Assembly: GCA_002773415.1 (NCBI GenBank)
Contig: PFBD01000008.1
Location: 1 to 54,021, forward strand
Source of the DNA: Candidatus Harrisonbacteria bacterium CG10_big_fil_rev_8_21_14_0_10_49_15
Lineage (GTDB): Bacteria > Patescibacteriota > Minisyncoccia > UBA6257 > 1-14-0-10-44-23
DNA length: 54,021 nt
Direction of reading: 5' to 3'
Shown one piece after another: positions 45,396 to 48,602 of the stretch. A program made the position numbers and the translations under genes. The notes beneath the pieces are model-generated. The model worked only from the letters and a program-made list of their open reading frames with translations. It was not told where the DNA came from and searched no databases. How positions within the stretch are numbered: position 1 is the first letter of the stretch; the number at the start of each line of letters is the position of its first letter.

Positions 45396-45452
45396 TTTGG
45401 CCGCATATTTAGCCTTGTTTTAACCATAAATTGGGTTGGATATGCGGCCAAA
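45396..45452. repeat. 13-bp-arm inverted repeat preceding the DGR target gene
   Basis: TTTGGCCGCATAT...(31 nt)...ATATGCGGCCAAA. Confidence 0.9.
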
Positions 45453-45539
45453 TGGAGCCGCGTGTGGGCCTACGAACGTTTTGCCAATGGTTGGCGAGAT
45501 TAGTAGGGTGCCCGGCAGACTACAAAGGAGTTTTCTGCC

Positions 45540-46157
45540 ATGACCACGACGACCGATTCTCCGATCACGCCCGAACAGCTCCACGAGGGGCACGGGTTTC
45601 TGTGTCGGCTGTCGAACCCGGGGTACCAGGCGCGTCGCGCGCTGATCGCGCGGGCGAGCGACCCCAACCGACACCCGGGCTACCTGGTCGACCACGACCC
45701 GAGCAGCTCGGTCCGGCGCGCCTGCGCGCTGGACGTAGCGACCTGCGGGCCAAAGCTGGACGCGCCGTTCAACGGCGCGCAGATCCTCACCGACGTCTAC
45801 GGTGAGGAGGATGGCGGTTTCGACCTCACCACGGTCGAGCCGCTGCACCTCGATACGACGCTTCGGCTCGGAGCGGCCTGCGAGAAGATCCTGCCGCGGC
45901 GGGAGAAGCTCTCCATGGGTGGCCGCAGGCTCCGCTGGTTCGTGAAGAACGCGAACGCCGGCACGCTGCCGCTTGCCGACCAGTGGAAGAAGCAGGGGAA
46001 GGTCATCTTCTTCCCCGACACTTCCTGGCGGCACGACAGCGGCAACGAGTACGTCCGGTACGCCTACGTCAATGACGGCCAGTGGGTCGTCCGCTACCAC
46101 TGGCTCGGCTTCGACGTCGGCGGGCGCTTCTGCGTCCTCGTCAGCAAGGAGGTCTAG
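45540..46157 (+). CDS. DGR variable (target) protein with C-terminal variable region
   Basis: SD AAAGGAG upstream; 3' end contains VR matching downstream TR with only A-position mismatches. Confidence 0.93.
   Translation: MTTTTDSPITPEQLHEGHGFLCRLSNPGYQARRALIARASDPNRHPGYLVDHDPSSSVRRACALDVATCGPKLDAPFNGAQILTDVYGEEDGGFDLTTVEPLHLDTTLRLGAACEKILPRREKLSMGGRRLRWFVKNANAGTLPLADQWKKQGKVIFFPDTSWRHDSGNEYVRYAYVNDGQWVVRYHWLGFDVGGRFCVLVSKEV
46022..46147 (+). repeat. DGR variable repeat (VR)
   Basis: 126 bp aligned to 46552-46677 with 13 mismatches, all at template A (A>G, A>C, A>T). Confidence 0.97.
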
Positions 46158-46170
46158 GAAACTTGGGCTT

Positions 46171-46190
46171 TGGGAATCTTCGGATTCTCG
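46171..46190 (+). other. candidate post-VR hairpin (TTCG tetraloop)
   Basis: GAATC-TTCG-GATTC core extended by GG/TC; 24-27 nt downstream of VR. Confidence 0.45.
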
Positions 46191-46551
46191 GGCCCTCGGT
46201 TCCTCGGTCCCGCAAACCCTACGACCCTGGCAGAAGTTCTGTCGGGGTCGTTCACATTTTGATATACTTTGAAGCGGATAGTACGTGACAACGCGCGGTT
46301 TCGTTTGGTGCTAACCAAGCGAGGTTGCACGTGGCCGAATTCCAGAGACAGGTTGCGCAGAGCTGTGGGCGGCTAAGTGAAAGCAAAGTTTCCCCGGGTG
46401 TCGCGCTTGATACTCTTAATATACTTTTATACTCCTTGGTATCGTGCGCTAGCGCATTGAACCCAGTAGGTCATACTGCTGAATGAGATGCGGAATCAGA
46501 TACAATCCTGAGAATATTCAATGGATGGTGTGGTGGAAGGTGCATGGTACG

Positions 46552-46677
46552 TTCCTGGCGGAACGACAACGGCAACGAGTACGTCCGGTACGCCTACGTC
46601 AATGACGGCCAGTGGATCATCAACTACAACTGGCTCGACAACGACGTCGACGAGCGCTACTGCGTCCTCGTCAGCAA
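46552..46677 (+). repeat. DGR template repeat (TR)
   Basis: 126 bp, AAC-codon-rich; 13 of ~32 template adenines differ in VR, 0 non-A differences. Confidence 0.97.
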
Positions 46678-46698
46678 TGGGTATGGTATATGCCGCTG

Positions 46699-46723
46699 GC
46701 TGCGCATTAGACTAATGCGCAGC
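46699..46723. other. perfect 12-bp-stem hairpin between TR and avd end
   Basis: GCTGCGCATTAG-A-CTAATGCGCAGC; overlaps avd stop codon. Confidence 0.9.
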
Positions 46724-47056
46724 TTCTGTGGCAGTTTTCTTTAGCCATCCGCCGAGCATTCTGCCGATGGTTGCAAGTTGTTCGGAAAGCAAGGCGTAGT
46801 GCTTGGTCTCAATGGATTTTGTTTCCCAGAGGATCATTAAAAAGAATTTAAGCAGGTCAAAATTGGTATTGGCTTTTTGTAAGATGAGTAACTTTTGCTC
46901 TTGTGGTGTATATCGCGCCAAGAAGATAAGTTTCAAAACCGCGATGAAAAGGCCGTCGATTTCTTCTCCAAGAGTGTATCTGGCTGATTTAGTGAGGTGT
47001 TGCTTGAGATTAAACCAAGTTTTATAACAACTAACCAAATGTTGCAAAATACTCAA
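46712..47056 (-). CDS. avd: DGR accessory variability determinant (Avd)-like four-helix bundle protein
   Basis: SARYTLGEEIDGLFIAVLKLIFLARYTPQEQKLLILQKANTNFDLLKFFLMILWETKSIETKHYALLSEQLATIGRMLGGWLK. Confidence 0.88.
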   Translation of the reverse strand: MSILQHLVSCYKTWFNLKQHLTKSARYTLGEEIDGLFIAVLKLIFLARYTPQEQKLLILQKANTNFDLLKFFLMILWETKSIETKHYALLSEQLATIGRMLGGWLKKTATEAAH

Positions 47057-47065
47057 ATTTCCAGC

Positions 47066-47076
47066 GGGGGGGGGGG
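47066..47076. repeat. 11-nt poly-G tract between divergent avd and RT 5' ends
   Basis: CCAGC-GGGGGGGGGGG-CTTC. Confidence 0.9.
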
Positions 47077-47094
47077 CTTCTTAAAGGGTCTGTT

Positions 47095-48078
47095 TTGGCT
47101 CATGTATTTGAAGAGATAGTTTCAGTTGAAAACTTGCTTTTAGCTTGGCAAGAATTTCTTAAGGGTAAGAGAAATAAAAAAGATGTTCAGGAGTTCTCCC
47201 TGCATCTTATGGATAATCTCCTTATTTTACACGAAGAGCTAAAAAAGGAAATCTACGCCCATGGTCTTTATAAGTATTTCAGGATAAACGACCCCAAGCC
47301 AAGAGATATCCACAAAGCCAGCGTCAGGGATAGATTGGTCCACCACGCCATTTATCGAGTTCTCTATCCCTACTTTAGCAAGCGATTTATAGCCGACTCT
47401 TATTCTTGTCAACTAGGAAAAGGCACGCACAAAGCGCTCAATCGTTTTCGCAGATTTGCCTTTAAGGTGAGCAGAAATCACACCCGCACCTGTTGGATTC
47501 TGAAGTGCGATATCAGAAAGTTTTTCGCGAACATAGATCACCAAATTCTGCTTCAAATTCTGCAGAAACACATCCAAGACGCCGATACTTTGTGGCTGCT
47601 TAACCAGGTTGTTAAAAGTTTTAACTCTGGTGAAGGCGGTATGACGCGTCATACCGCCATGGGTCTGCCGCTTGGTAATCTCACCAGTCAGTTGCTTGTG
47701 AATATTTACATGCATGAGTTTGATCAGTGGGTGAAGCGCGGCTTGAAATTCAAGTACTATATCCGCTATGCGGATGACTTTGTGTTTTTATCTACGGACA
47801 GAAATGAACTGGAGCGGCTCATTCCACGGATTCAGGATTTTCTGCAGAACAAGCTCAAACTACAACTGCATCCTAACAAGCTATTTATCAAAACCCTGGC
47901 TTCCGGCGTGGACTTTTTGGGTTGGGTGCATTTTCCGGATCACCGCGTCTTGCGGACAGCGACTAAACGGCGGATGCTGCGAAAAGTGGTTGGATTTTCT
48001 AACGAAGCTATGACCTCTTCGTATTTGGGGATGCTGTCGCATGGGAACGCGCGGAAGTTGGAGAAATTTTTAGAATAA
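47095..48078 (+). CDS. DGR-type reverse transcriptase
   Basis: GLPLGNLTSQLLVNIYMHEFD, YYIRYADDFVFLS, HPNKLFIKTLASGVDFLGW; start codon uncertain (TTG 47095, or ATG 47039 if poly-G length changes). Confidence 0.93.
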   Translation: MAHVFEEIVSVENLLLAWQEFLKGKRNKKDVQEFSLHLMDNLLILHEELKKEIYAHGLYKYFRINDPKPRDIHKASVRDRLVHHAIYRVLYPYFSKRFIADSYSCQLGKGTHKALNRFRRFAFKVSRNHTRTCWILKCDIRKFFANIDHQILLQILQKHIQDADTLWLLNQVVKSFNSGEGGMTRHTAMGLPLGNLTSQLLVNIYMHEFDQWVKRGLKFKYYIRYADDFVFLSTDRNELERLIPRIQDFLQNKLKLQLHPNKLFIKTLASGVDFLGWVHFPDHRVLRTATKRRMLRKVVGFSNEAMTSSYLGMLSHGNARKLEKFLE

Positions 48079-48153: not shown

Positions 48154-48336
48154 ATGACTAAGGTGGAGCTCCAGAAAATTGAAAAGATGGCCGCGGAGAG
48201 TGCTACGCTCGCGCGCAAGGCGTTGCGAAAGAGCGATGAGCTTGAGGCGTATTTGAGTTTGCTGGAGTATCGAGCCGGCAAGGCGCAAAAGCATGCCTCG
48301 GTGAGCGCCCTGTTTAAGAAACTGAAATTGCGATGA
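48154..48336 (+). CDS. putative antitoxin of RelE/YafQ-type module
   Basis: 60-aa charged ORF overlapping the downstream toxin ORF by 4 nt. Confidence 0.6.
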   Translation: MTKVELQKIEKMAAESATLARKALRKSDELEAYLSLLEYRAGKAQKHASVSALFKKLKLR

Positions 48337-48602
48337 AGAGACTCTTAACGACGCCAAGGTTTGATCGGCGTCTGGAGCGTTTTGTGCGCCGACATCCGGA
48401 ATTAAAGGATGTTGTTTTTGAATCTATGACCGCGCTCTTGAAGAATTCTCCGCCGCAAAGCCTAAAATTGCATAAGCTGGGTGGTATACTGAAGGGCTGC
48501 TATGGTGCCAGCGTTTCGCATGCCTATCGGCTTGTGTTTGTTATGGATTCTGATTCTGTGTGCTTTTTGGATGTCGGTACTCACGATGAAGTATATCGGT
48601 AG
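48333..48602 (+). CDS. RelE/YafQ-type toxin
   Basis: LLTTPRFDRRLERFVRRHPELKDVVFESMTALLKNSPPQSLKLHKLGG...YRLVFVMDSDSVCFLDVGTHDEVYR. Confidence 0.8.
   Translation: MKRLLTTPRFDRRLERFVRRHPELKDVVFESMTALLKNSPPQSLKLHKLGGILKGCYGASVSHAYRLVFVMDSDSVCFLDVGTHDEVYR

Follow-up and report, generated by a model that had tools for sequence, protein, structure and literature searches.

Can a simple sequence repeat switch a targeted hypermutator on and off? The question is raised by a diversity-generating retroelement (DGR) in the window, by which we mean the whole stretch of 54,021 nucleotides that was analyzed; the locus lies on contig C34 of a draft CPR genome (884 kb, 91% complete). At the 5'-5' junction of its divergent avd and reverse transcriptase (RT) genes sits a run of 11 G residues (G11), unmentioned in an earlier note made from the sequence alone. 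G11 is the longest G/C run in the genome, all other G/C runs being 9 nt or shorter.

The identity of the element was examined through its repeats and its two proteins. The variable repeat (VR) and the template repeat (TR) aligned without gaps over 126 bp, with exactly the 13 mismatches that the earlier note had listed, all 13 of them opposite TR adenines; the probability that 13 random mismatches would all hit the 32 TR adenines is 2e-9. Every VR change is at the first or second position of its codon, and the 11 residues altered are those that had been named. Within the 884-kb genome, the TR sequence was present in two places, VR and TR themselves, and no remote VRs for this TR were found. The RT matched Pfam RVT_1 (1.4e-26) and the PHROG reverse transcriptase family (7e-107). 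Among PDB sequences its best match was 8ub7 (1e-43), which we take to be a DGR RT, far ahead of the best group II intron RT (1e-20) and of a retron RT (8e-6); it groups with CPR DGR RTs in a tree restricted to the DGR RTs of 191 loci. The adjacent protein had been described as Avd-like, and matches to Pfam bAvd (9e-12) and to the PHROG family "Avd protein of DGR" (3e-16) agree, as does a match to NCBIfam DivGenRetAVD (1.6e-18) that falls below the model cut-off. The window contains a real DGR. From the A-only signature, and by analogy with experimentally studied DGRs, we infer that it works by mutagenic retrohoming, in which RT and Avd would make an error-prone copy of TR-RNA, miscopied at adenines, that would take the place of VR. 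The parts list of the element is full (Table 1), and to that extent the earlier description of a complete DGR stands; however, the G11 length in the assembly leaves the ATG start of each gene, avd and RT alike, out of register with the gene body.

TABLE 1 Features of the window DGR and its avd/RT junction
Feature	Coordinates	Strand	Remarks
DGR target gene	45540..46157	+	205 aa; VR at C-terminus
VR (variable repeat)	46022..46147	+	alignment to TR
Stem-loop GGGAATC-TTCG-GATTCTC	46172..46189	+	candidate VR-downstream hairpin, read from sequence; shortly 3' of target stop
15-bp inverted repeat	46221..46251	+	87% complementary; 74 nt 3' of VR; terminator-like
TR (template repeat)	46552..46677	+	32 adenines; 13 changed in VR
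12-bp perfect inverted repeat	46699..46723	no strand	directly 3' of TR; overlaps avd 3' end
avd body	46712..47056	-	114 aa counted from internal TTG; profile matches
Predicted RT start ATG	47039..47041	+	within avd body; reverse complement of avd His codon
G11 tract, predicted phase switch	47066..47076	no strand	between avd and RT 5' ends
Predicted avd start ATG	47101..47103	-	reverse complement of RT His codon CAT
DGR reverse transcriptase	47095..48078	+	327 aa counted from internal TTG

Around these features, a 13-bp perfect inverted repeat (TTTGGCCGCATAT / ATATGCGGCCAAA, at 45396-45452) lies ∼90 nt 5' of the target start codon, and a small two-gene cassette adjoins RT at 48154-48602, its second gene being YafQ/RelE-toxin-like (weak Pfam and NCBIfam matches). 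An Rfam search returned tRNAs alone above threshold. The same genome carries a second complete DGR on contig C30, with a VR/TR pair of 132 bp (14/14 mismatches at A) and a target different from that in the window, and a third RT with avd on contig C16, beside which no VR/TR pair was found in the stretch examined.

The target protein had no match in Pfam, NCBIfam, PHROG or PDB sequences. Examined for a C-type lectin fold, its predicted structure was a poor model (mean pLDDT of 48) with no fold match; the sequence showed only a conserved W/Y motif. In the VR-bearing C-terminus, five residues (W149, F158, Y176, W182, and W188) are invariant in eight CPR targets, while the N-terminal half is common only to Harrisonbacteria locus L025 (57% identity overall). 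The suggestion that the target family is distinctive is therefore apt for the N-terminal part, known only from L025 besides the window, but not for the C-terminal motif, which is common to CPR targets. The target gene has a GC content of 67.5%, compared with 41% for avd, 44% for RT and 48% for the window; the C30 target has a GC-rich appearance too.

To place the locus in its clade, 80 CPR loci with RTs ∼58 to 67% identical were collected, followed by further loci from 387 genomes of the same class, and the layout was counted on the 209 RT loci that were left after redundancy removal. A divergent avd directly upstream of RT was present in 192 of the 209, so that the order of target, TR, divergent avd and RT, first read as distinctive, is the usual one for DGRs of this CPR clade. 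The earlier note proposed a search for homologous VR/TR pairs in related genomes; a simple scan of 81 long loci, the window among them, detected a pair in 61, and of the 1,037 mismatches in these pairs 975 fall at TR adenines. The pairs lie ∼1 kb upstream of RT. The CPR/Patescibacteria DGRs of clade 2 (PMC8144416) share with the window the host group, a DGR-type RT, Avd, A-specific TR-to-VR changes and targets without recognized domains. As a DGR, the window element is ordinary for CPR bacteria, with a layout and a mechanism standard for its clade.

The junction repeat proved to be nearly universal in this clade: 164 of the 192 divergent non-redundant CPR loci have one, comprising G7-14 (n = 143), GA/AG (n = 18), and GT, TTGG and C9G9 (one each). 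Long simple repeats numbered 78 across the 742 kb of related loci, and all but 4 of them (74) were within 170 nt of the start of the RT match. The repeat lies inside the predicted avd coding sequence, where G tracts encode Pro runs and other repeats encode other residues. On the RT tree of 191 loci, the type of repeat changes at least 23 times, and the strongly supported branches alone require at least 3 changes for GA and at least 7 for absence. This convergence argues that it is the repeat itself, and not one peptide, that is kept. A deeper CPR sister group is without the repeat, its avd and RT start codons lying a few bases apart, and more distant DGRs on viral contigs showed no such repeat near RT. 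Lengths in draft assemblies are to be read with the proviso that homopolymers may be off by one. Among dinucleotide tracts, L166 and L188 have flanks that are 91% identical and GA repeats of 17 and 13 nt, a difference of two units that places them in phases 1 and 0; they represent different species, not strains.

Two further observations were made at the junction. The closest relative, L025, has an N gap inside its G tract in the assembly, as expected for a long or mixed tract. In L018, L054, L056 and L171, a ∼95-bp segment with terminal inverted repeats of 12 to 13 bp (ACCC..TTA / TAAC..GGGT) lies between the avd leader and the RT start and was considered as either an insertion or an invertible segment. 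L018, L054 and L056 also have a G tract beyond the segment, which makes an insertion look likelier than an invertible promoter.

Next, the start of avd was examined. On the avd strand, an upstream ATG has a frame open into the repeat in 164/164 repeat loci, and from the other side the frame of the avd body is likewise open up to the repeat in all 164. In the window, the leader from this ATG reads MSQNRPFKK and continues into a Pro run. In 111 loci this ATG is supplied, as its reverse complement, by the His codon of the RT motif HxxEEIISxENLL. That His codon is CAT in 114 cases and CAC in none, while the remaining His codons of the same RT genes divide 632:584 (p = 8e-31; here and below, p-values treat related loci as independent, and kinship makes them too small). 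The frame read from the His CAT is open in 110/113 cases, compared with 34/130 for CATs out of register with RT, which mostly hit stops. Because the His codon is CAT only and the leader is open, the upstream ATG appears to have been selected as the avd start, all start codons here being predictions. A -10-like consensus ∼7 nt before the ATG is only suggestive of a leaderless start.

The phase between this ATG and the avd body depends on the repeat. Of the repeat loci, 33 have the two in frame and 131 do not (OFF), the latter divided 80 and 51 between the two other phases; where the repeat is missing or decayed, they are in frame in 26/28 (Fisher p = 1e-13), one exception having an N gap and the other a short remnant of a GA repeat. 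The genome of the window has two further copies, a paralogue on C30 with G7 and a copy on C16 with (AG)10, and the assembly places both out of frame. In 120/131 OFF loci, no avd-frame ATG, GTG or TTG lies upstream of the tract. The avd gene nevertheless remains intact when OFF: in the closest avd pairs in which both copies are OFF, dN/dS was ∼0.03 to 0.12, and VR-TR divergence in OFF loci equals that in loci with avd in frame (ON). Since avd is under purifying selection and the VRs are as diverged as in ON loci, the OFF state looks reversible rather than dead.

The predicted effect of the repeat on RT differed between loci. An ATG that could serve RT lies between the repeat and the RT body in 92 of the 164 repeat loci, so only avd would switch there. 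In 61 others, no RT start codon lies between repeat and body, and the RT frame is open through the repeat. An RT-frame ATG upstream of the repeat, before any stop, was found in 57 of these 61, compared with 21 of the 92 that do not need one (p = 4e-19). The repeat length that opens avd also frames the upstream RT ATG in 58 of the 61, and exclusively so in 42; thus, one slip would switch both genes in this class. The WHE motif of avd was rejected as the sole source of the RT ATG, since different avd His codons serve; the CAT bias of these codons is weak (85:14, versus 39:17 for other avd His codons; p = 0.02).

The window fits best in the class in which both genes would switch, although it has a TTG on the far side of its tract. 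With G11, translation from the RT ATG at 47039 would give 26 aa and translation from the avd ATG at 47103 would give 16 aa, so that both genes are closed. Computed lengths for other tracts were 346 aa (RT) and 130 aa (Avd) with G12, and 345 aa and 129 aa with G9; G10 and G13 leave both genes closed. The internal codons TTG 47056 (avd) and TTG 47095 (RT) could allow some product in the OFF state.

We consider it very probable that repeat slippage subjects DGR hypermutation in this CPR clade to translational phase variation, with the switching itself deduced from sequence. The avd and RT genes are divergent, and their 5' ends overlap: the predicted avd start ATG falls within the opening codons of RT and, for one class of loci (the window among them), the predicted RT start ATG falls within the avd body. 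In the proposed mechanism, replication slippage would alter the length of the repeat between these starts and the gene bodies, and the new length would bring avd into or out of frame, alone or jointly with RT. The window would be OFF as assembled (G11), and G12 or G9 would open both genes. In a population, diversification of VR would then be confined to a minority of cells, and a useful variant would be locked in when the repeat slipped back; length changes within populations, control of translation and gating of mutagenesis are all presumed in this model. MutS and MutL were not found in the 91%-complete genome (11 of 14 control genomes match each), so slippage is probably unrepaired there. 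A wider proposition, that targeted hypermutation across CPR is a contingency locus whose mutator is toggled at random by a slipping repeat, in many loci with both genes per slip, so that a binding protein would be diversified in bursts followed by a freeze, appears likely.

Alternatively, the element could be an ordinary constitutive CPR DGR with a neutral or structural tract, Avd and RT both starting downstream of it. The RT ATG beyond the repeat in 92/164 loci and the window TTG codons 47056 and 47095 fit such an arrangement. For avd, some start codon lies between tract and body in 47 of the 131 OFF loci, but none does in the other 84. Moreover, a neutral G run would not be expected in 164/192 loci, nor would it be expected to be swapped for other repeat types, and the CAT-only His codon with its open leader places the upstream avd ATG under selection. 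On balance, constitutive expression is unlikely.

The swapping of repeat types also bears on events at the RNA level. Homopolymer runs can make a polymerase or a ribosome slip, and transcriptional slippage or ribosomal frameshifting might thereby yield a constant fraction of Avd and RT from unchanged DNA. However, (GA)n, (GT)n and (TTGG)n stand in for G tracts, and what all four repeats have in common is slippage during DNA replication; tract lengths, in addition, occur in all three phases and not at one frame offset, which makes an RNA-level process very unlikely. We give still less credence to the repeat as a promoter spacer whose length sets avd and/or RT transcription: its position between two divergent genes resembles promoter-type phase variation, but in every repeat locus the tract comes downstream of the avd ATG and the leader is open into it, and loci free of the repeat are in frame almost without exception (26/28), neither of which a spacer would predict. 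A decaying pseudo-DGR or an assembly-error frameshift, without switching, would explain why neither ATG-initiated frame is open as assembled, G runs being error-prone, but is hardly credible given RT and avd bodies that are otherwise intact, a cleanly A-only VR signature, purifying selection on avd in OFF relatives and a tract that assembly error cannot produce in 164 loci.

The proposed slippage switching of a DGR can be compared with two known systems. The Bordetella phage BPP-1 DGR (bRT-Avd-TR-mtd) is alike in RT, Avd, TR, VR and adenine mutagenesis, but its avd, TR and brt form one co-directional operon (PMC12875486), whereas avd in the window is divergent, lies between TR and RT, and is separated from its predicted start by a repeat at the junction with RT. 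BPP-1 retrohoming is lost when either RT or Avd is inactivated (PMC12875486); since both are needed there, framing avd alone should gate the CPR system as well, if the essential role of Avd carries over. The contingency loci of Campylobacter, Neisseria, Haemophilus and Helicobacter share a poly-G, di- or tetranucleotide repeat near the gene start, three phases and an intact gene. In contrast to these loci, what would be switched here is a targeted hypermutator instead of a surface protein or methylase, and a single tract can set the frame of two divergent genes that overlap. On the best reading, the novelty lies in placing a DGR, itself of known type, under simple-sequence-repeat phase variation that would often act on both of the overlapping genes.

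In this clade the junction repeat appears to be general yet unreported. No link of DGRs to phase variation was found in open-licence full texts (the main CPR DGR paper, Paul et al. 2017, not among them), and no mention of a simple repeat or of phase variation was found in the searched passages of PMC8144416. Regulatory handles on DGRs are only suspected in a 2026 study (PMC12875486), and the repeat switch, if true, would be a simple answer to how a large group of cellular DGRs is regulated. It would couple two mutators, with slippage controlling hypermutation. Clade 2 DGRs show below-average activity in metagenomes (Roux et al. 2021, PMC8144416), which a mostly OFF population could explain; the authors also propose purifying selection. 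In such genomes, avd and RT may be overlooked or cut short by automatic annotation.

Finally, a few loci bear on where the elements reside and how they move. A scan of IMG/VR yielded only two members of the RT clade (L147 and L148), both on viral contigs, with O-like replication and terminase genes and a serine integrase; they are without the repeat, and their avd ATG is in frame. These two cases, as if locked ON, hint that the switch is retained by cells and not by phages. The L166 and L188 DGR loci, 91% identical over the junction, come from two separate genome families (f90 and f64), a distribution suggestive of horizontal transfer of DGRs in CPR.
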